A stretch of 34,008 nt of DNA from the IMG/VR virus record IMGVR_UViG_3300037963_000405, positions 1 through 34,008 of that record. One strand, 5' to 3'. Shown in pieces: positions 3,082 through 34,008 of the stretch. The position numbers and the translations under genes were made by a program. This DNA comes from a virus. Position 1 is the stretch's first letter, and each line of letters begins with the position of its first letter. The notes beneath the pieces were generated by a model. It searched no databases, had not been told where the DNA came from, and saw only the letters and a list, made by a program, of their open reading frames with translations.

Positions 3082-3819
3082 ATGTTAACTTTAAAACAAG
3101 CATTAGGATTAACTGATTTAAAAAAGGCTTTTGACACTTACTCTTTAAGTTTTAATGGTACTGATGAAAGTGTTACTATTGACTCAATGGTAGGAACTTT
3201 AAATCCTTTAGAGGGTTCTGTTTCTTTGTGGTGTAAACTAGATACAGTTTCTGCTTCTGGTAATTTATTTAGAACAAGAGTAGATGGCAGTAATTATATT
3301 AATGTACTTTATCATGCTTCTTCTAATCAAATGAGATTTGCATACAAGGCTGGTGGAACTTTAAAAACTGCTGTATTTTCTGATGCAATAGAGAATGATG
3401 GTTTATGGCATCATGTAGTTGGAACTTGGAGTTCTTCGTCAGATGAAATTAAAATTTATTTAGATGGAACTTTGAAAGCAACAACTACAGGTTTAGGAAC
3501 TTGGAGTGGAACTTTAGTGGATGCAGATTTAGGTCAAAACTTAACAGGTGGAGGTTTTTACAAAGGTAAAATGAGTAATGTAGCATTATTTAATACAGTT
3601 TTATCTTTGGCTAATGTTCAGTATATACAGAATAGGTCAAATGCTGTTGCTACTAGATTTTATCCTATGGATATAACTAATATGTCAGGTTTAAAAGCAT
3701 ATTACAGATTGGGCTTAGGTTCAGGAACTGTAGCCTTAGATAGCAGTGGTAATGGTAATAATGGAACTTTAGTTAATACTCCTACTTGGAGTACAACAAC
3801 ACCAACTTATAACAATTAA
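3082..3819 (+). CDS. LamG/concanavalin A-like lectin domain protein
   Basis: This 245-residue protein contains a LamG-type beta-sandwich at about residues 20-190. Diagnostic pieces are the early SLSFNGTDESVTI strand, the SLWCKLD strand, the DGLWHHVVGTW core motif, the IKIYLDGTLKATT strand and the later GKMSNVALFNTVLS segment. Near the C-terminus is DSSGNGNNGTL, typical of such lectins. These domains bind glycans or proteins, and on virions they usually aid attachment to host surface polysaccharide. The N-terminal 17 residues may anchor it to the particle. It lies in the head-fibre region, well away from the tail lectins at 19809-26970. Confidence 0.75.
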   Translation: MLTLKQALGLTDLKKAFDTYSLSFNGTDESVTIDSMVGTLNPLEGSVSLWCKLDTVSASGNLFRTRVDGSNYINVLYHASSNQMRFAYKAGGTLKTAVFSDAIENDGLWHHVVGTWSSSSDEIKIYLDGTLKATTTGLGTWSGTLVDADLGQNLTGGGFYKGKMSNVALFNTVLSLANVQYIQNRSNAVATRFYPMDITNMSGLKAYYRLGLGSGTVALDSSGNGNNGTLVNTPTWSTTTPTYNN

Positions 3820-4671: not shown

Positions 4672-5688
4672 ATGCCTTGTTACGAATGTGAAAATGGAAA
4701 ATGGAAGTTTGGTCAAACTGGCAACTGTCAGTATGATTCTAAATCAGAGTGTGAAACTGCTAATAAAGATTATTATGCAGAAGAAACTTATAATGACTAT
4801 CCTGAAGCAGCAACCAATAATGCTAAGAGAGCAATAAAGTATAAAGAAGAGAATGGTAGTTCTTGCGGAACTATCGTGGGCTGGACAAGAGCCAGACAAT
4901 TAGCAAATAGAGAAAGCCTTACAAGAAGAACTATTGCTCGTATGGCATCATTTAAAAGACACCAACAGCATAAAGATGTGCCATATGATGAAGGTTGTGG
5001 TGGTATAATGTGGGATGCTTGGGGAGGTGATGCAGGTGTTAACTGGGCAATAAGAAAGTTAGAACAAATAGAAAAAGCAAAAAATTCTATGAAGAATCAA
5101 GAAGAAACAGAAATTAGCGAGAGAATAAAAAAGGCCTTGAAAAATAAAATGGAAGAGCATAATGAAGATGTGAAAGATTTAAAGAAGGATTGGAATCCAA
5201 AGGTTACTGTTGCTAAACTAGAAAAAGTATTTAAAAGAGGTGTTGGTGCTTATTATACAAATCCTGAAAGCGTAAGAGAAGGGGTTACAGGGCCTGACCA
5301 GTGGGCACTAGCACGTTGCAATTCTTTTTTATATGCTTTAAGAAATGGAAAATATAGAAGTGGTAAGCATGATACAGATTTGTTACCAGAAAACCACCCA
5401 ATGAAAACAACTAAAGAAGAAAAAAACATGGCAAAAAAAAGAAAATACTATGGAGATGATGAGCATGACCATCACTTTCACTTTACAAAAGATATGATGG
5501 AAAAGTTACATCATGATGGAGAATTAGAAGTTAAGGTAGAAGAAGATGATAAAGAGATGCTTATATTGTTTACTTATGATGTAGAGGGTATGGAAAAAGA
5601 AGAAGAAAAAGAAGAGTACACAATAGAAGAAGATATAAAAGAAGAGTTCACTGATTTCTTTGACGAAATAATTAACAAGTATAAATAA
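4672..5688 (+). CDS. Two-domain phage structural-type protein with DUF5824-like domain
   Basis: This 338-residue protein has four recognisable parts. Residues 1-30 form a Cys-rich start (CYEC, C19, C27). Residues 49-132 form a domain with WTRARQLANRESLTRRTIARM and CGGIMWDAWGGDAGVNWA, a module that recurs in phage head proteases and other virion proteins. Residues 172-240 (KVTVAKLEKVFKRGVGAYYT, QWALARCNSFLYAL) resemble DUF5824, a viral and phage domain of unknown function. Residues 250-338 form a strongly acidic tail with a HDHHFHF cluster. The gene abuts the endolysin with a one-base stop/start overlap. I cannot assign a molecular role; a DNA-ejection or assembly role is possible. Confidence 0.5.
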   Translation: MPCYECENGKWKFGQTGNCQYDSKSECETANKDYYAEETYNDYPEAATNNAKRAIKYKEENGSSCGTIVGWTRARQLANRESLTRRTIARMASFKRHQQHKDVPYDEGCGGIMWDAWGGDAGVNWAIRKLEQIEKAKNSMKNQEETEISERIKKALKNKMEEHNEDVKDLKKDWNPKVTVAKLEKVFKRGVGAYYTNPESVREGVTGPDQWALARCNSFLYALRNGKYRSGKHDTDLLPENHPMKTTKEEKNMAKKRKYYGDDEHDHHFHFTKDMMEKLHHDGELEVKVEEDDKEMLILFTYDVEGMEKEEEKEEYTIEEDIKEEFTDFFDEIINKYK

Positions 5689-6692: not shown

Positions 6693-7781
6693 ATGAAAAA
6701 ATACGGAAAAAGATTAAGGCTTTCTGAAGAGGAAGTTGAAATGGTATATGAGAGTAGGGCAGAAAATACATCTATAAATGGTAACTCTGCACTTGATATA
6801 CATTTACAAGAAAGAGGTATAAATAAAAAAGATGTAGTATCTGTAAAACATTGGCAATCTGCTAATGGACAATATAGATTTAGCGTAGTTACTAAAGAAG
6901 ATTTAAGTTTAGACCAAAATGTTTTATTAGAAAACATAAAAAAATTTATAGAAGGACACTCGCCTTACTATCCTCCAAAAGAAAGAAAAAATAAATATGG
7001 TAATCACTTATTAGTAATAAATCCTGCAGACATACATATAGGTAAATATGCAAATGATTTAGAAACTGGTAGTGGTTATGACGTTGAAACTGCTTGTATG
7101 CGTGTTTTAGAAGGCTTAGAAGGCTTAACAGTAAAGGCAGAAGGGTTTGATGTAGAAAAAATATTATTCTGCATAGGTAATGATGTATTGCATATAGACA
7201 ATGTTTACAACCAAACTACAAAAGGTACAAGACAAGATGTTGATGGTAAATGGTGGGAACACTTTGAGATTGCCTTAGCATTATATGTTAAGTGTATAGA
7301 AATGTTAAGAGAGATAGCACCTGTAGATGTAGTACACTCTATGAGTAACCATGATTATCAAAGTGGCTTTCATTTAGCACACGCACTTAAAAGTTGGTTT
7401 AGAAATGATAAAGATGTAAACTTTGATATAAGCGTTTCACATAGAAAGTATTATCAGTATGGTAAAAACCTAATAGGATTTGAACATGGAGATGGTGCAA
7501 AGATGGATAAATTACCACTAATTATGGCACAAGAAAGACCGCATATGTGGAGTGAGTCTAAGTTTAGATACTGGTATCTACATCACTTACATCACAAGGT
7601 AAAACACAAGTGGTTAGATGGTAAAGACTTTATAGGTGTTACTATAGAGTATATGAGGTCTCCATCAGGCACTGATAGTTGGCACTCAAGAAAAGGTTAT
7701 GTGGGAGTTCCAAAAGCAGTTGAAGGATTTTTACACGAAAAAACAAGCGGTCAAGTGGCTAGACTTGTGCATTATTTCTAA
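6693..7781 (+). CDS. Calcineurin-like metallophosphoesterase
   Basis: The ATG at 6693 is chosen because the longer reading (from a TTG at 6636) would begin inside the terminator hairpin. The 362-residue protein carries the metallophosphoesterase ligands in order: DIH at 113-115, GND at 162-164, NHD at 219-221, a HGDG motif at 265-268 and a His cluster around 297-301 (HHLHH). Residues 1-90 form a separate helical, possibly DNA-binding, N-terminal domain. Related enzymes cut DNA (SbcD/Mre11 type) or phosphodiesters. Placement just upstream of the replication genes favours a nuclease or DNA-repair role, but this is inference. Confidence 0.8.
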   Translation: MKKYGKRLRLSEEEVEMVYESRAENTSINGNSALDIHLQERGINKKDVVSVKHWQSANGQYRFSVVTKEDLSLDQNVLLENIKKFIEGHSPYYPPKERKNKYGNHLLVINPADIHIGKYANDLETGSGYDVETACMRVLEGLEGLTVKAEGFDVEKILFCIGNDVLHIDNVYNQTTKGTRQDVDGKWWEHFEIALALYVKCIEMLREIAPVDVVHSMSNHDYQSGFHLAHALKSWFRNDKDVNFDISVSHRKYYQYGKNLIGFEHGDGAKMDKLPLIMAQERPHMWSESKFRYWYLHHLHHKVKHKWLDGKDFIGVTIEYMRSPSGTDSWHSRKGYVGVPKAVEGFLHEKTSGQVARLVHYF

Positions 7782-7984: not shown

Positions 7985-8488
7985 ATGGGAAAAATGAAAC
8001 AAATGTATGAACAACAAACAAATATTAATAACTTAAACAACAATGAAATGAGTAGAAAATCAAACAAGCAAGAACAAGTAGAAGTAACTCCTGAAACAAG
8101 AGAGGATGCTCTAAGAAGATTATTTAAAGAAAACAATCTTGTCAAAGAAGATGTATATAAAGACAAGAGAGGTTTTGTAATCATTACTAGGTCAGGTATA
8201 GATAAAATTGTAAGTAAACAAGGAATAACTGTTGCTTATGATGTAGTTACATTAGACTTAGATAAGAATCATGTAGTCTTAAAAGCAGTTGCAACAATGA
8301 AGGTTGGTAAGAACGAAGTAAGAAACATGATGAGTTTCGGTGAGGCATCTGATGCTAATTTAATGGGAGGAGGTAAAAAGTTTCCTGTTGCTATGGCTGA
8401 GAAGAGAGCAATGTCAAGAGTTGTACTTAAATTGGCTGGTTTCTATGAGCAAGGTAATGTCTTTGGTCAGGATGAGATAGTTGATTAA
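7985..8488 (+). CDS. Early protein, possible single-strand annealing protein
   Basis: This 167-residue protein has a low-complexity Asn/Gln-rich start (1-35), so the true start may be the ATG at 8048 (Met22). The folded part runs from about 45 to 160: RGFVIITRSGIDKI, a strand-rich middle, then FPVAMAEKRAMSRVVLKLAG and a C-terminal acidic FGQDEIVD. The helix with AEKRA-R-VLKL resembles that of ERF/Rad52-like annealing proteins of Bacteroidota phages as I remember them. Context supports recombination, since an SSB-like protein and nucleases are in the same operon. The assignment is tentative. The stop overlaps the next start by one base. Confidence 0.4.
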   Translation: MGKMKQMYEQQTNINNLNNNEMSRKSNKQEQVEVTPETREDALRRLFKENNLVKEDVYKDKRGFVIITRSGIDKIVSKQGITVAYDVVTLDLDKNHVVLKAVATMKVGKNEVRNMMSFGEASDANLMGGGKKFPVAMAEKRAMSRVVLKLAGFYEQGNVFGQDEIVD

Positions 8489-9160: not shown

Positions 9161-9601
9161 ATGAAAAGAAGAAGAGTAAGATTTAGCCAGTATTATGACA
9201 ATATAATATTAGAAGAAATATCAAAAATTTATGACGTAGAAAGAGAAAGAATTTTTTTAGGCAGTAGAACTAAGAACATAATCTATGCAAAGCGTATGTA
9301 TATATTTGTATTGAGAAATGTTTTTTATCTAACATTAATGGAGATAGCAGAGTTAACTAATATGCACCATGCTTCTGTTATACATCATGATAGAAAGTTT
9401 CAGTTCTTTTACGAGAATTATTCTAAAGACCAACAAGCGTTTAAGCAAATAGAAAACAGAATAATAGAAGTAGAAGTAGATGAAGAAATTATTGCTTTAG
9501 AAAGTAAAAAGAAACAAATAGAAGAATCATTAACCAAATTATATTTAATTAAAACACAAAAAAATGAAAGAGAAAAAAGAGAAAATTTATTTACCGAGTA
9601 G
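9161..9601 (+). CDS. DnaA domain IV-like DNA-binding protein
   Basis: Residues 15-80 of this 146-residue protein follow DnaA domain IV. There is an N-terminal helix (ILEEISKIYDVERERIF), a basic stretch (SRTKNIIYAKRMYIFVLR) like the basic loop, and TLMEIAELTNMHHASVIHHDRKF, which matches the DnaA signature in which the HASVIHH segment corresponds to DHTTVLHA. The C-terminal 60 residues form a Lys/Glu-rich helix. No ATPase domain is present, so it can bind DNA but not open it by itself. It probably recruits or competes with host DnaA at a phage origin. Confidence 0.7.
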   Translation: MKRRRVRFSQYYDNIILEEISKIYDVERERIFLGSRTKNIIYAKRMYIFVLRNVFYLTLMEIAELTNMHHASVIHHDRKFQFFYENYSKDQQAFKQIENRIIEVEVDEEIIALESKKKQIEESLTKLYLIKTQKNEREKRENLFTE

Positions 9602-9827: not shown

Positions 9828-10327
9828 TGTTGGTTTGGAAAAAAACTACCTATCCTAGCACTTTCATTGGTTTATCTGATGAACTTGCTAAGGCTAGGTC
9901 TATGCTGTCTGCTAATGTGTATAATAAAAATACAGATAAGTATAGGGGTAAACAAGAACATAAGATACAACAACTTGGAATATTTGCAGAGTTAGTTGCT
10001 AGACATATACTTGATAACAATAAAGGTGTTCAGTATAAGGCTGCACCTATATTAGAGGCGAGTCCTGTTGTTGGTGCTGATATAATTTTAAAAGGTATTG
10101 GTGAGATGAACTACATAGATGTTAAGGGTGTAAAGACAGATGGTGATACTTTAAGGGTTAACTATGATGCTCATAATAATCCTAACAAAAAAGTTACACA
10201 CTATTTATTCATACAACCTATAAATCAAATATACGCAAGGTTTTGCTGGTTGTTACACAGAGATGTTTCTAAGTGGACAGTAGTCATGTCAACCTATACT
10301 AAATGCTATGAACTAAAAATAAAATGA
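9827..10327 (+). CDS. PD-(D/E)XK-type nuclease candidate
   Basis: This 166-residue protein has the order of acidic residues expected of the PD-(D/E)XK fold: Glu55 in GIFAELVARHIL, Asp85 in VVGADIIL and Asp98-x-Lys100 in YIDVKGV. The VNYDAHNN segment and an aromatic strand (THYLFIQPI) follow. Such proteins are restriction-like or recombination nucleases. It overlaps the SSB-like stop by one base and the initiator start by four, so it is embedded in the replication operon. Substrate unknown. It could be a resolvase, or a host-DNA degrading enzyme. Confidence 0.55.
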   Translation: MLVWKKTTYPSTFIGLSDELAKARSMLSANVYNKNTDKYRGKQEHKIQQLGIFAELVARHILDNNKGVQYKAAPILEASPVVGADIILKGIGEMNYIDVKGVKTDGDTLRVNYDAHNNPNKKVTHYLFIQPINQIYARFCWLLHRDVSKWTVVMSTYTKCYELKIK

Positions 10328-10962
10328 AAGAGAAACCAAACTACTATGCTATAATAAGTGCTGAGGTTAGATATGATAAAGATTTAACTGCAAACGCTAA
10401 ATTACTATACGCTGAAATTACTGCACTACTAAATATGAATGGTGAGTGCTTTGCAACAAACAAATACTTTTCCAACTTGTATGGTAAAAGTATTGTAACT
10501 ATATCTAAGTGGATTAGTGAATTAGTTGCAAATGGTTATATATCAACGTATTACACTTATAAAGAGGGTACTAAAGAAATTGATAGGAGGTATATAAGTA
10601 TTCTTAAAGGGGGTATTAAAGAAAACTTAAAGGAGGGTATTAAAGAAAACTTTAAGGATAATAATACAAGTATTAATAATAATATTACATATAGTAATAA
10701 TAAGCGTTTTAAAAAACCAACTATTGAGGAGATTAGTATTTATTGTAAACAAAGAAATAATACAATAGATGCAGAAACTTTTTTTGATTTTTATGAAAGC
10801 AAAAATTGGAAAATAGGAAAGTCTGCAATGAAGTGTTGGAAGAGTTGTGTAAGGACTTGGGAAAAGAGACAAGACACAAAAACAAAAGGTATGAGTAAAA
10901 TACATCAACACTTACAAAAAAATATAAACGTAAAAGAAAAACTAAAACAACAATTTAAATAA
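10324..10962 (+). CDS. Winged-helix replication initiator (lambda O-like role)
   Basis: Residues 1-95 of this 212-residue protein resemble the HTH_36 type of winged helix found in phage and plasmid initiators (LTANAKLLYAEITALLN, NGECFATNKYFSNLYGKS, TISKWISELVANGYIS). The middle contains an eight-residue repeat (GIKENLKE/GIKENFKD) then an Asn-rich linker, and residues 125-175 (KPTIEEISIYCKQRN, WKSCVRTWEKR) form the C-terminal helical domain often fused to these. The DNA of the middle carries iteron-like repeats, as in lambda O, where the origin lies within the initiator gene. It starts four bases inside the preceding gene. Confidence 0.7.
   Translation: MKEKPNYYAIISAEVRYDKDLTANAKLLYAEITALLNMNGECFATNKYFSNLYGKSIVTISKWISELVANGYISTYYTYKEGTKEIDRRYISILKGGIKENLKEGIKENFKDNNTSINNNITYSNNKRFKKPTIEEISIYCKQRNNTIDAETFFDFYESKNWKIGKSAMKCWKSCVRTWEKRQDTKTKGMSKIHQHLQKNINVKEKLKQQFK
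10561..10705 (+). other. Candidate replication origin: iterons plus A/T-rich segment inside the initiator gene
   Basis: The 18-mer GGGTATTAAAGAAAACTT occurs at 10611-10628 and again at 10635-10652, exactly 24 bp apart, and a weaker copy (GGGTACTAAAGAAA) lies at 10566-10579. Directly downstream, 10656-10705 is almost pure A/T (AATAATAC, ATTAATAATAATATTACATA). Iterons followed by an A/T-rich unwinding stretch inside an initiator gene is the lambda ori arrangement. The repeat also encodes an in-frame peptide repeat, so part of the signal could come from protein duplication. Confidence 0.5.
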
Positions 10963-12222: not shown

Positions 12223-12441
12223 ATGCCAAAGATTAGAAAAATAAAAATAGAGGACAGAAAAGATTTAAGAGGAGGTGGGTATGCTAGAAGAAAATTTAGC
12301 ATACAAGAAGCAGATGATATAAGAAAAGAATACAGAACCTCAACACAAAAGATAACTATCTCATCATTAGCGAGAAAGTATAAAGTATCTCAACCTTTAA
12401 TGTACCAATTAATAAAAGGCACTACCTATACAGATGGATAG
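12223..12441 (+). CDS. Small helix-turn-helix protein
   Basis: This 72-residue protein has a basic N-terminus and a C-terminal HTH: SIQEADDIRKEYRT forms helix 1 and ISSLARKYKVSQPLMYQLIK forms helices 2 and 3, similar to HTH modules found in phage and homing-endonuclease proteins. It ends at 12439-12441, where the first long G run begins. It may regulate the nuclease gene downstream or bind the nearby repeat region. Both are inferences from position. Confidence 0.55.
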   Translation: MPKIRKIKIEDRKDLRGGGYARRKFSIQEADDIRKEYRTSTQKITISSLARKYKVSQPLMYQLIKGTTYTDG

Positions 12442-12480: not shown

Positions 12481-12828
12481 ATGAAAAAAGAAGCATCAGT
12501 CCAATCATCTTTTTGTACTTACATGAAGTACACATATCCTGATATAAGATACTGTGCATCATTAGGTGGTATTAGAACATCTATGAAACAAGCAATACTA
12601 GCAAAGAAAACAGGTTATGTAAAAGGCTTTCCAGATATGCAGATACTTAAAGTAAACAGTAAGTATGCAGGTTTATTCTTAGAAATAAAAGCAGACAAGA
12701 AAAGTTATCCAACTAAAGAACAGAAAGAGTGGGTAGCATATCTTAATGAAGCAGGTTACTATGCTAAGGTTGTTAAAGGACTAGACCAATGTATGGATGT
12801 ACTTGACTGGTACATGAAAATAAAATAA
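12481..12828 (+). CDS. VRR-NUC domain nuclease
   Basis: This 115-residue protein is the length of a stand-alone VRR-NUC domain. It shows an N-terminal acidic helix (EASVQSSFCTYM), a GGIRTS turn, the GFPD motif at 49-52, LFLEIK at 65-70 supplying the Glu-x-Lys pair, and a following EQKEWVAYL helix that supplies Gln81. Stand-alone phage members are thought to cut branched DNA such as Holliday junctions. The gene is bracketed by a 10-bp direct repeat (12473-12482 and 12915-12924) and by a G-run cluster and an iteron region. Confidence 0.8.
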   Translation: MKKEASVQSSFCTYMKYTYPDIRYCASLGGIRTSMKQAILAKKTGYVKGFPDMQILKVNSKYAGLFLEIKADKKSYPTKEQKEWVAYLNEAGYYAKVVKGLDQCMDVLDWYMKIK

Positions 12829-12881
12829 TTTTTATTATAAAAAAAAATTTTTATTTTTTTATTTTTTTAAAAAAAAAATTT

Positions 12882-12911
12882 TGAAACTGCCCTGAAACTG
12901 CCCTGAAACTG
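12882..12911 (+). repeat. Three tandem 11-bp iterons (TGAAACTGCCC)
   Basis: TGAAACTG is repeated at 12882-12889, 12893-12900 and 12904-12911 with identical CCC spacers between copies. The period is one helical turn, so bound proteins would line up on one face of the DNA. Confidence 0.85.
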
Positions 12912-12925
12912 CTGGGTCTGCTATA

Positions 12926-12950
12926 ACACGTGTCTACACGCCCACACACG
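12926..12950 (+). repeat. Three ACACG boxes with 10-bp period
   Basis: ACACG occurs at 12926-12930, 12936-12940 and 12946-12950. The spacers differ (TGTCT, CCCAC), so the conserved part is only the box, as expected of protein-binding sites rather than slippage repeats. Confidence 0.7.
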
Positions 12951-13033
12951 CCTGTTTCTATATATAAAAGATTGATAATCAGTTATTTAGAATGATTATA
13001 AATTAGCATATTTTATAAATATTTTTAACATTA

Positions 13034-13066
13034 TTTGTTTTATTGTGTAAAAGTTTGTTATATTTG
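13034..13066 (+). promoter_or_regulatory. Bacteroidota-type promoter for the small-gene block
   Basis: TTTG at 13034-13037 and TATATTTG at 13059-13066 are 21 bases apart, and a C follows the -7 box. Downstream is the leader ACTTAAAACTTAAAAAAATG, nearly identical to the leader of the early promoter at 7841-7870. It would transcribe 13098 to the terminator at 15652. Confidence 0.65.
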
Positions 13067-16293: not shown

Positions 16294-16542
16294 ATGGAAA
16301 AAGAACTATTAAATTACTTAGCGGAACATGATTGCTTAATTGCAGATGGTTTTGATAATGCTATAATTGGTACTGCCTACAACAAAGAAGCAGAGATGAT
16401 TGTTGTGTATGATATTCAAAAATGTATAGAGTCTTTAGTTAAAGATGGAATGAATGATGAAGATGCTATAGAATTTTTTTATCATAACACTATGAATTGT
16501 TATGTTGGTGCTAAGTCTCCTTTATTTATAAACACATTATAA
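16294..16542 (+). CDS. 82-aa conserved-type phage protein upstream of terminase
   Basis: The ATG at 16294 is preferred over a TTG at 16279. The product contains DGFDNAIIGTAYN, VVYDIQKCIESLVKDGM and NDEDAIEFFYHN, ending in AKSPLFINTL. Small proteins with the DGFD-AIIG and DGM-EEAIE-F pattern are frequent in many phages, without known function. It overlaps the small terminase start by one base, so it is co-translated with the packaging genes. Confidence 0.55.
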   Translation: MEKELLNYLAEHDCLIADGFDNAIIGTAYNKEAEMIVVYDIQKCIESLVKDGMNDEDAIEFFYHNTMNCYVGAKSPLFINTL

Positions 16543-16958
16543 TGGGTGAAGAAAAAAAGTTAGGAGAAGAGGCAAGGAAAAAGAGACCTCAACTTGGAAA
16601 GATAGATGAGAACTACAATAACACACCTAAATCTTTGCAACCAAAAAACCATGAAGTAAGGCAAGTGGCTAAGATGACTAGGAAGTCATTGGCATATGCA
16701 CTAGAAGGACAACCAGTAAAAATTAAGATGGCATTAGATATATTGTTTGATGAAGACCCTCGTGCCTACATAGATGCAATAGCAAAACTAATGAACTATG
16801 CTATACCTAAACTACAATCAACAGAAATCAAAAAAGACACTGATACCAAAATTGAAATAAAATTAAATGAAGGTGCAACTCTTGAAGATATTAAAAATCA
16901 AATAAGAGGTCTTGATGATGCAGAAGATATTGACTTTACAGAACTAGATGAAGAATAA
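16542..16958 (+). CDS. Terminase small subunit-like protein
   Basis: This 138-residue protein is charged and helical, with VAKMTRKSLAYALEGQPVKI and KMALDILFDEDPRAYIDAIA, and an acidic C-terminal tail (DDAEDIDFTELDEE). It lies directly upstream of and overlaps by 11 bases the large terminase gene, the usual place of the DNA-recognising small subunit. No sequence motif is fully diagnostic, so the call is from position, size and helical, acidic-tailed layout. Confidence 0.6.
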   Translation: MGEEKKLGEEARKKRPQLGKIDENYNNTPKSLQPKNHEVRQVAKMTRKSLAYALEGQPVKIKMALDILFDEDPRAYIDAIAKLMNYAIPKLQSTEIKKDTDTKIEIKLNEGATLEDIKNQIRGLDDAEDIDFTELDEE

Positions 16959-18390
16959 AAAACTTTTAAAGTTTGCACTCAAAAAGAAACTTTGTGAGAT
17001 GAGTTTTTATGAGTTCTTTAAACAGGCATGGCACGTTGTAGAACCATCAGTACCTCTATCTACTAATTGGCATCATAAATATATTTGCGATATACTACAA
17101 GCAGAGTGTGAAAGAATCATTGCACAAAAACCAAAAACAAAAGACATAATCATTAACGTACCCTTTCGTAGTACAAAGTCATTAATAGTTACAGTTATGT
17201 TTCCAGTATGGGCTTGGATAAAATCACCAAAACTTAGATTTATAACCTCATCATATTCTGCAACACTATCTATTGAATTAGCAACAAAGTCAAGGGATAT
17301 AATATTTAGCGATTGGTTTAAAGCAAGATGGAGTGATGTTTTTTTTATTAAGAAAGACCAAAACCTAAAAGAGAGATATGAGAATAATCATATTGGAATG
17401 AGAAGAGCAACCTCTGTTGGTGGTACTGTTACTGGACAGGGTGGAGACTTTCTTATTGTTGATGACCCCCTATCACCACAAATGGCAAACTCTGCAACTG
17501 AAAGAGAGAACGCTAATGAATGGTATAGGACAACATTCTACTCAAGACTTAACCAAGCAGACATTGGAGTAAGAATTATAATTATGCAGCGAGTACATGA
17601 AGATGACTTAAGTGGATTTTTACTTGATAGAGAAACAAGAACTAAATATAAACACATTTGCATACCAGCAACAAATGAAGATGGAAATATCAAACCAAAA
17701 TCATTAGTTCAATTTTATAACAAAGAAAGTGGACTGTTTTGGCCAGATAGATTTAGTAAAGAAGTTTTAAATGATTATAAAAGTGCTTTAGGTAGTTATG
17801 GCTATGCTGGACAACTACAACAAACACCAACACCCCTAGATAGTGGTATGATACGCAAAGATTGGTTTAAAATAGATAGATATAGAGTAGAAGAAGCAAC
17901 AGTTAACTTTGTTATTGACCCTGCATATACTGCAAATCAAAAAAATGACCCCTCAGCACTACTAGCATATACCTATAAAAACAATAAATGGCAGATAATA
18001 GATTGTGTAAATGTGCATAAAGAGTTTCCAGAACTGGTAAAGTTTATACCACAATGGGTAAAAAAGAATGGTTATACACCAAAAAGCAGAATATATGTAG
18101 AGCCAAAAGCATCAGGAAAGTCTATAGTTCAAACGTTAATTAGAGAAACTGGACTAAATGTTAAAGAAGATAAGCCGCCAACTAAAGATAAAGTAGCAAG
18201 AGTAAGTGATATTAGTGCATCTTTAGAGAGTGGTAGGGTAAGTTTGTTAAATGGCGACTGGAATAGAGAGTTTTTAGACCAACTAACTAAATTTCCAGCA
18301 GCAAAGCATGATGATATGGTAGATTGCTTAGTTATGGCAGTAAATAAGGAGATTTGGAGTGGAAATGGCAAGATAGTGTACTTTAGTTAA
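16948..18390 (+). CDS. Terminase large subunit
   Basis: This 480-residue protein is the packaging motor. The ATPase half shows a Walker A-like NVPFRSTKS at 70-78, a QxxR-type SYSATLS segment at 102-108 and Walker B FLIVDD at 168-173. The C-terminal RNase H-like nuclease half shows FVIDPAYT with Asp324, VEPKASGKS with Glu385 and KHDDMVDCL with Asp455/456. These are the motifs of TerL families with the Terminase_6C type nuclease. The size is normal, and no intein or frameshift is visible. Confidence 0.92.
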   Translation: MKNKKLLKFALKKKLCEMSFYEFFKQAWHVVEPSVPLSTNWHHKYICDILQAECERIIAQKPKTKDIIINVPFRSTKSLIVTVMFPVWAWIKSPKLRFITSSYSATLSIELATKSRDIIFSDWFKARWSDVFFIKKDQNLKERYENNHIGMRRATSVGGTVTGQGGDFLIVDDPLSPQMANSATERENANEWYRTTFYSRLNQADIGVRIIIMQRVHEDDLSGFLLDRETRTKYKHICIPATNEDGNIKPKSLVQFYNKESGLFWPDRFSKEVLNDYKSALGSYGYAGQLQQTPTPLDSGMIRKDWFKIDRYRVEEATVNFVIDPAYTANQKNDPSALLAYTYKNNKWQIIDCVNVHKEFPELVKFIPQWVKKNGYTPKSRIYVEPKASGKSIVQTLIRETGLNVKEDKPPTKDKVARVSDISASLESGRVSLLNGDWNREFLDQLTKFPAAKHDDMVDCLVMAVNKEIWSGNGKIVYFS

Positions 18391-30875: not shown

Positions 30876-31910
30876 ATGAAAGAAAAATGGTATAACATAC
30901 AAAATAAGAAGGGTGAAACTGCTGACATTTATATCTTTGATGAAATAGGAAGATATGGTGTTTCTGCACAAGAATTTATTTCAGATATAAAAAATCTGAA
31001 GAATACCCCAATCAATTTAAGAATTAATAGTTTAGGTGGTGATGTTTTTGATGGCATGGCTATGTATAACGTAATTAAAAGGAGAGAGGCTAGAACCACT
31101 GTATATATAGAAGGTATAGCGGCAAGTATTGCTACTATAATTGCTTTAGGTGCAGATGAGGTTATAATGGCAGAAAATTCTTTATTTATGATACATAATG
31201 CGTGGGGAGGTACTACTGGTGAAGCAAAAGACATGAGAAAAACTGCAGAAACTCTTGAGAAAATATCAAGTGAGTTAACAGATATTTACACTAAAAAGAC
31301 AGGATTATCAAGAGAGGCTGTAAGTCAAATGATGGATGAAGAAACTTGGTTAAATGCTGAAGAAGCATATGAATTAGGTTTTATTGACGTTATTTCTGAC
31401 TCAATAAAAGTTGCTGCAAAGTATGATATTTCTAAATTTAAAAACATAACACATGAAAAAATTAAGAATCAATTAAGTATTAACATAAATAATAAAACAA
31501 TGACTAACGAGTTAAAAGAATGGTTCAACAACAAAGTTGAAGAAATCGTTGCTGCTGTAAAGAGTGATGTGAAGGTTTCTGAAGATGTTGCTGAAGATAC
31601 AGCGATAACTGTTAATCTAGGAGATAATGAAGAAATAATGAATAAAATTTCTGATTTTGAAACTAAAAACTTAGAGTTATCTAACAAGATTTCTTTATTA
31701 GAAGAAGAATTAGCAACTTCTAAAGGTGCTAACGAAACTTTAACTGAAGAGGTTGAAGCGTTAAACGCTAAAATCAACAAAGCAGATGCTAAAGGTACTG
31801 AAATAGAAACTGATAGCGACCCTGTAATCGTTGAAAACAAAAAAGAAGATGCTAATGCAAGTTTTTACAATGCAATGGCAGAAAGAGTAAGAAATAAATT
31901 TAATAACTAA
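30876..31910 (+). CDS. ClpP-type prohead protease with C-terminal scaffold part
   Basis: Residues 1-185 of this 344-residue protein match the ClpP/S14 head maturation protease: INSLGGDVFDGMAMYNVIKR, Ser84 in GIAASIATIIAL, His107 in MIHNAWGG and a DEETWLNAEEAYELGF segment in which a Glu (about 156) takes the place of the usual catalytic Asp. Residues 209-344 are a Lys/Glu-rich coiled coil (KISDFETKNLELSNKISLLE) of scaffold type. The enzyme would cut the scaffold and capsid precursor during head assembly. An internal ATG at 31500 probably makes the scaffold alone. Confidence 0.85.
   Translation: MKEKWYNIQNKKGETADIYIFDEIGRYGVSAQEFISDIKNLKNTPINLRINSLGGDVFDGMAMYNVIKRREARTTVYIEGIAASIATIIALGADEVIMAENSLFMIHNAWGGTTGEAKDMRKTAETLEKISSELTDIYTKKTGLSREAVSQMMDEETWLNAEEAYELGFIDVISDSIKVAAKYDISKFKNITHEKIKNQLSININNKTMTNELKEWFNNKVEEIVAAVKSDVKVSEDVAEDTAITVNLGDNEEIMNKISDFETKNLELSNKISLLEEELATSKGANETLTEEVEALNAKINKADAKGTEIETDSDPVIVENKKEDANASFYNAMAERVRNKFNN
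31500..31910 (+). CDS. Nested scaffolding protein (internal start within the protease gene)
   Basis: An in-frame ATG at 31500 (Met209 of the protease) is preceded by AATAATAAAACA, the same type of A-rich leader as the capsid gene start at 31925. Translation from it would give a 136-residue coiled-coil protein (start MTNELKEWFNNKVEEIVAAV). Lambda C/Nu3 and many ClpP-type phages use such a nested scaffold. The evidence here is the leader, the domain boundary at that point and the precedent. Confidence 0.6.
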   Translation: MTNELKEWFNNKVEEIVAAVKSDVKVSEDVAEDTAITVNLGDNEEIMNKISDFETKNLELSNKISLLEEELATSKGANETLTEEVEALNAKINKADAKGTEIETDSDPVIVENKKEDANASFYNAMAERVRNKFNN

Positions 31911-33668: not shown

Positions 33669-33947
33669 ATGTGTAATTGCAATGCAAAAAGCGTAGATTC
33701 ACCACATTTAAAAATATATACAGTTATGTCAGAATACAAAGCAAAAAAATCAGTAGGTACTTTATATAAGGGTGGTTTTAAAATTAATTGGGCAAGTGCA
33801 AGTCAAGAGGAATTAGCATATGCCTATGAGGAGTTAGGTATGACTTCATTAATAGAAAAAACATCAAACATAAAAACAAAAGATGAGCCAAAGAAAACAA
33901 CCAAAAAGAAAAAGTCAGGTAAAGAATCTTCAGACTCAAAAGAGTAA
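33669..33947 (+). CDS. 92-aa small protein overlapping the portal start
   Basis: The protein has a Cys-containing start (MCNCNAKSVD), a central YTVMSEYKAKKSVGTLYKGG and NWASASQEELAYAYEELGM, and a Lys/Ser-rich tail (EPKKTTKKKKSGKESSDSKE). Its last 65 bases are also the first codons of the portal gene in another frame. The small size and place between structural genes suggest a head accessory protein. The basic tail could bind DNA. The family is not recognised. Confidence 0.5.
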   Translation: MCNCNAKSVDSPHLKIYTVMSEYKAKKSVGTLYKGGFKINWASASQEELAYAYEELGMTSLIEKTSNIKTKDEPKKTTKKKKSGKESSDSKE

Positions 33948-34008
33948 TACTTTTGAATTTGGAGTTTTTAATTTAGCAATACCTGAGCATATTGAAGAAC
34001 CACAAGAC
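33883..34008 (+). CDS. Phage portal protein (5' part, continues at base 1)
   Basis: The start is the ATG at 33883, and the in-frame TAA at 33871 rules out anything longer. The first residues are basic (MSQRKQPKRKSQ). The start lies inside the preceding gene, so 65 bases (33883-33947) are read in two frames. Bases 33910-34008 duplicate 1-99, and the protein continues in frame 1 to 1311. Confidence 0.8.
   Translation, partial: MSQRKQPKRKSQVKNLQTQKSNTFEFGVFNLAIPEHIEEPQD
33910..34008. repeat. Terminal direct repeat (right copy)
   Basis: This is the second copy of the 99-bp overlap described at 1-99. It covers the C-terminal end of the 92-residue protein gene (stop at 33945-33947) and the early codons of the portal gene. 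Confidence 0.95.

Follow-up and report, generated by a model that had tools for sequence, protein, structure and literature searches.

The stretch analysed here (the window) is an entire virus record of 34,008 bases. Its first and last 99 bases (1-99 and 33910-34008) are identical, and a circular or circularly permuted contig is therefore probable. A replication operon that ends with the gene for a VRR-NUC nuclease is followed by an operon of small genes and then by the terminase genes, and a short array of direct repeats lies between the two operons. Gene calling was mechanical, promoters and terminators were assigned from sequence patterns, and confidence in the structure models is moderate. 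The repeat units were located in the sequence itself; the basis of some other assignments is given in parentheses. Along the record, the features are as follows.

4752..4760, + strand: dispersed TGAAACTGC unit inside a gene
7085..7093, + strand: dispersed TGAAACTGC unit inside the exonuclease gene
10324..10962, + strand: gene of an O-like / DnaD-like replication initiator, which contains repeats at 10555-10703
12223..12441, + strand: HTH72, a small conserved helix-turn-helix protein, weakly Mor/C-like; a rival candidate ligand of the array
12481..12828, + strand: VRR-NUC / Holliday-resolvase-like nuclease, the final gene of the replication operon
about 12817..12882, no strand: run of A/T only, ahead of the array; relatives do not conserve it
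12882..12912, + strand: array of three TGAAACTGC units with an 11-bp period, conserved in relatives
12913..12921, + strand: degenerate fourth, terminal unit TGGGTCTGC (the array-end consensus in relatives is GAAACTGCYRGGTCTGC)
12922..12952, no strand: three ACACG boxes; in relatives their place is taken by alternating purine-pyrimidine or other tracts
13035..13066, + strand: Bacteroidota-type promoter of the small-gene operon (sequence pattern: TTG, 21 bp, TATATTTG)
16542..16958, + strand: candidate small terminase, the gene before TerL (position only; no family match)
16948..18390, + strand: terminase large subunit, TerL
30914..30922, + strand: dispersed TGAAACTGC unit inside the head maturation protease gene

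The first two units of the array, TGAAACTGCCC, start at 12882 and 12893 and the third, TGAAACTGC(TG), at 12904, which gives an exact 11-bp period. ACACG recurs every 10 bp, with boxes starting at 12926, 12936 and 12946. The two sets of three repeats described in the original prediction were thereby confirmed at their exact coordinates. Of 200 genomes simulated with a Markov model, none contained the 20-mer of the array and none the ACACG pair, and triples of any 5-mer at a period of 10 or 11 numbered 6 in the record and 0-1 per simulation. The repeats are far above chance expectation. The A/T block reported ahead of the first set is also present, as a run that starts in the final codons of the VRR-NUC gene and lies mostly past the stop codon (12826-12828). 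Likewise, the array does lie just upstream of the promoter of a block of unknown genes, as had been proposed, this block being the small-gene operon.

Several other proteins encoded upstream are of relevance. A small protein with DnaA domain IV is found at 9161-9601 (PF08299, E 2.6e-9). The exonuclease belongs to phrog_704, and the conserved protein adjoining it (7985-8488) has no Pfam or PHROGs assignment; Rad52 is its best, weak, predicted-fold match, and it gives weak RecT profile hits. The terminase is closest to those of isolated flavobacterial phages, among them Croceibacter phage P2559Y (46% identity), and for this reason a marine flavobacterium is the probable host.

The array and its flanks in related phages

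The array is shared by a large family of marine phages that have not been cultured. Its exact 20-mer, TGAAACTGCCCTGAAACTGC, matched 104 viral contig stretches. In 84,980 prokaryote genomes it matched only twice, both times in unrelated sequence. A bacterial source of the 20-mer was rejected, as these two matches are due to chance and lie in unrelated, more G+C-rich sequence (59% and 45%). The genomes reached by way of these matches showed no sign of Bacteroidota, and for one of the two, SusD was absent from the phylum. Among 50,697 phage records, neither a similar region nor a similar array was found.

Conservation was also seen in a sample of 75 loci that is independent of the array, as they were picked solely by similarity of the VRR-NUC gene. 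At least two units were present within 430 bp downstream of this gene in 72 of the 75. In the remaining three, HTH72 comes after the nuclease gene; in one of these exceptions, contig L115 (which also appears as L339), the array is located farther downstream, past a WYL_2-type gene. The arrays contain 2-7 copies. A spacing of 11 bp is the commonest, towards which counts from the 20-mer search are biased because that search imposed one 11-bp step, and spacings of 9, 12 and 13 bp also occur. The 11-bp phase is the mode and not the rule.

Comparison with related phages, which the original prediction had suggested as a check, upheld the array but neither the ACACG phasing nor the A/T block. In L003, L005 and L025 the A/T block is missing, and the array begins right after, or within, the end of the VRR-NUC gene. 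Where the record has ACACG boxes, relatives have C/A-rich or G/T-rich tracts, or nothing similar, and the ACACG set is one state of a fast-changing tract. Within the 80 bases after the array, purine-pyrimidine alternation runs for 12 bp or more in 27 of 68 distinct VRR-type regions and for 20 bp or more in 11 of 68, the maximum being 29, whereas such runs occur in 0.9% and 0.02% of background windows, respectively. Since many array-bearing relatives lack both the A/T block and the phased ACACG boxes, the two repeat sets are separate, unrelated features, and the idea of one helically phased protein array spanning both had to be abandoned. The spacing of the array units also varies by 4 bp.

Two further elements were observed in this interval. 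Several relatives (L006, L012, L014, L059 and L072) carry a 29-bp perfect alternating purine-pyrimidine tract, which is Z-DNA-prone and usually has GCGTTCTATATA at its end; it is located between the array and the promoter, where the ACACG boxes sit in the record. The palindrome-like ATTTAGAATGATTATAAAT at 12985-13003, which we take to resemble a 7-1-7 Fur/PerR-type box, recurs in many relatives about 60-75 bp past the array.

These comparisons bear on whether the array is an iteron-type replication origin, at which an initiator would bind the units and open the A/T block. Direct repeats beside an A/T-rich stretch, together with an O-like initiator, are indeed reminiscent of the origin iterons of the lambda O type, and a protein with DnaA domain IV is also encoded in the vicinity. 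However, the unit, at just 8-9 bp with an 8-bp core, is too short for such iterons, its spacing of 9-13 bp keeps no constant register, it is located outside the initiator gene, and further copies are dispersed genome-wide. The A/T block is missing in some relatives, the array contains no DnaA box, and the whole record contains no perfect TTATCCACA box. GC skew, which had been put forward as a check for an origin, does not change sign across the array, although this is a weak test because the genes are co-directional. Moreover, the initiator gene 2 kb upstream bears its own repeats, in which 24-bp direct repeats are followed by AT-rich ones (10555-10703). Relatives have AT-rich repeats of 15-24 bp at the corresponding place, which may reflect a repetitive protein linker. 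The repeats of the initiator gene would make a better, albeit unproven, origin candidate than the array, and an origin at the array itself appears highly improbable.

A partition site was considered as well. The parC/ParR system of plasmid R1 has 11-bp direct repeats near a promoter, and so does the record. Here, however, the spacing is inconstant, the copies are dispersed, and neither a partition ATPase nor a centromere-binding protein was found among the scanned proteins of the record, which represent part of its ORFs.

Operon ends, promoters and terminators

Gene order is constant in 21 near-complete genomes, with the replication operon (exonuclease, HTH_26, O-like initiator, HTH72 and VRR-NUC, in this order) followed by the array, the small-gene operon, the terminase genes and the structural genes, and with all landmark genes on one strand. 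In all 21 genomes the array is located about 2-4 kb ahead of the terminase genes and has the same orientation. The final gene of the operon varies among phages (VRR-NUC, HTH72 or WYL_2-type), and the array marks the operon end regardless. L020, L025, L070 and L090 have a second array some 1.6-2.6 kb farther downstream, where it follows the WYL_2 (Sm-like) gene that closes the next operon.

A promoter-like pattern was also found past the arrays of relatives. It would suit a multi-site operator, in which a phage regulator, most likely the Mor/C-like HTH72, binds tandem sites about one helical turn apart and thereby governs the downstream promoter, that of the small-gene operon. HTH72 is strongly conserved, is predicted to fold as a helix-turn-helix protein, and is weakly similar to Mor and to Mu C; it has no homologue among the 50,697 phage records. 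Its gene is upstream of 96 of 103 arrays, but VRR-NUC is equally frequent near them (97/103), and the co-occurrence is therefore uninformative. A comparison with the Mor/C activator sites of phage Mu is similarly ambivalent, as a Mor-like helix-turn-helix protein, of weak similarity, is encoded alongside the array, whereas the promoter distance is not fixed and copies are dispersed in genes. With promoters called by pattern only, the distance from the array to the next promoter ranges from about 93 to 380 bp. This variability argues against an ordinary operator, as does the 4-bp variation in unit spacing, and an operator would leave unexplained why the word is over-represented, with polarity, in coding sequence (described below). 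We consider control by such a regulator unlikely.

In many groups of these phages, the arrays are also associated with transcription terminators. A strong T-run hairpin is present within about 130 bases of 44 arrays, usually with the array downstream of it, and in 18 of these 44 the hairpin segment itself includes an array unit. In L008, L010, L099, L140 and L171 the loop and 3' stem of an intrinsic terminator upstream of the array are built of the array unit; one example reads GGGAGGTAGTATTGAAACTGCTTCCC, followed by the T-run. One alternative is that the word is recognised in the transcript or on the non-template strand, as a termination-linked or antitermination-type element at operon ends. 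Such a role would account for a strand bias that parallels transcription, for the inclusion of the unit in terminator hairpins in one group of phages, and for the marking of operon ends by the arrays. Many arrays, however, lie past a strong terminator and before the next promoter, where they should be little transcribed, and the array showed neither an unusual RNA fold (z -0.59) nor an Rfam match. The 44 arrays that adjoin a strong intrinsic terminator favour a role in DNA over one in RNA. The array most probably acts as DNA, and a function at the transcript level appears very unlikely.

The word elsewhere in the genomes

With the arrays masked, we ranked 11,314 octamers in 705 kb by their excess over a pentamer Markov model. 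The most over-represented was TGAAACTG (175 copies, 24.6 expected) and the second was GAAACTGC (116 copies, 28.7 expected), these counts being inflated by the inclusion of related genomes, with smaller values for non-redundant sequence. The same masked set contained TGAAACTGCT 78 times in the forward and once in the reverse orientation, against about 4 and 2 expected. Since nearly all genes are on one strand, the polarity of the word relative to transcription and to replication is inseparable. A second gene caller, again with the arrays masked, left the top three octamers unchanged.

Because related genomes inflate these counts, a stricter test was applied, in which synonymous codons were shuffled in 302 non-redundant genes. 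In this test TGAAACTGCT was the top 10-mer (15 copies, 0.9 expected) and GAAACTGCT the top 9-mer (19 copies, 2.2 expected). GAAACTGC was in excess in two codon frames (17 copies against 5.8 expected, and 7 against 0.07), which amino-acid content cannot explain and which points to selection on the DNA word. The record alone has 3 coding copies against 1.7 expected, a difference that is not significant, and no excess of the word was found in isolated flavophages. Tandem units also occur within a coding sequence: a small gene in L010 (1491-1516) and L030 (1368-1402) contains 3-5 tandem GAAACTGCT units, which encode ETA repeats, and L362 has tandem GAAACTGCT units at the corresponding place (3191-3234).

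None of the three functions offered by the original prediction (an iteron origin, a partition site or an operator) explains why the same word is also the most over-represented one, on a single strand, elsewhere in the genomes. The origin, partition and fixed-operator readings fit poorly, and the earlier interpretation as a whole is partly supported.

A Chi-like reading of the word

A polar word that is both dispersed on one strand and arrayed between the replication operon and the terminase genes resembles Chi. We estimate the probability that TGAAACTGC(T/C) is such a Chi-like word at about 0.5. In lambdoid phages, Chi is clustered between the replication genes and the terminase, and phages that encode a recombinase without a RecBCD inhibitor over-represent Chi, more so towards the cos site (Bobay, Touchon and Rocha 2013, PMC3784561). 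Chi of lambdoid, P1-like and T5-like phages (GCTGGTGG in E. coli) and the present word have in common that they are short, polar, over-represented and situated between replication genes and the terminase or packaging site (PMC3784561). In the genomes that carry it, the excess of our word goes beyond composition, and the strand polarity of TGAAACTGCT (78 against 1) is pronounced, though confounded by the one-strand gene layout. The recombination genes of these phages comprise the exonuclease, the VRR-NUC/Holliday-resolvase-like nuclease and a probable Rad52-like annealing protein (a weak fold match). The resemblance has its limits, as the sequence differs from GCTGGTGG, the word forms tandem arrays of about 11 bp here, the hosts are probably flavobacterial, and we only infer recognition by a host enzyme. 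Compact tandem arrays of this period are not described in the Chi literature that we searched, and a search for literature on the word, or on Chi of Bacteroidota or Flavobacterium, returned nothing relevant.

The probable reader would be a RecBCD/AddAB-type enzyme of the host that starts at the packaging end. As concatemers are replicated and packaged, the terminase would cut near its own genes, and the array would then have an open double-stranded end on its right. The host helicase-nuclease would enter at that end, move leftward and approach every copy of the word 3' side first, which is also the direction from which the enzyme must meet Chi of E. coli for it to be active. The orientation of the array suits an enzyme entering at the packaging end if the cut is near the terminase genes. 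With several copies in series, recognition of the word would become near certain, and it may switch the enzyme from degradation to protection and recombination, with the formation of concatemers or the restart of forks as the outcome.

Instead of a host enzyme, the foremost alternative is a reader encoded by the phage, namely a nuclease, an annealing protein or a DNA-organising protein that uses the word as a genome-wide self mark or loading site. It would account for the same polar genome-wide enrichment, and candidates exist in the exonuclease, the nucleases and the probable Rad52-like annealing protein of these phages. On the other hand, no system of this kind is known, and we regard such a reader as distinctly unlikely.

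Returning to the Chi-like word, it is conceivable, with somewhat less confidence, that TGAAACTG(C) is the first Chi-type signal for Bacteroidota hosts, stacked by phages between their replication and packaging modules, or else a new phage-encoded self-recognition word. If true, marine Flavobacteriia, for which the literature searched has no Chi, would gain a specific candidate for such a word. It would also mean that phages distant from the enterobacterial ones place such words between replication and packaging too, in this case as compact arrays.
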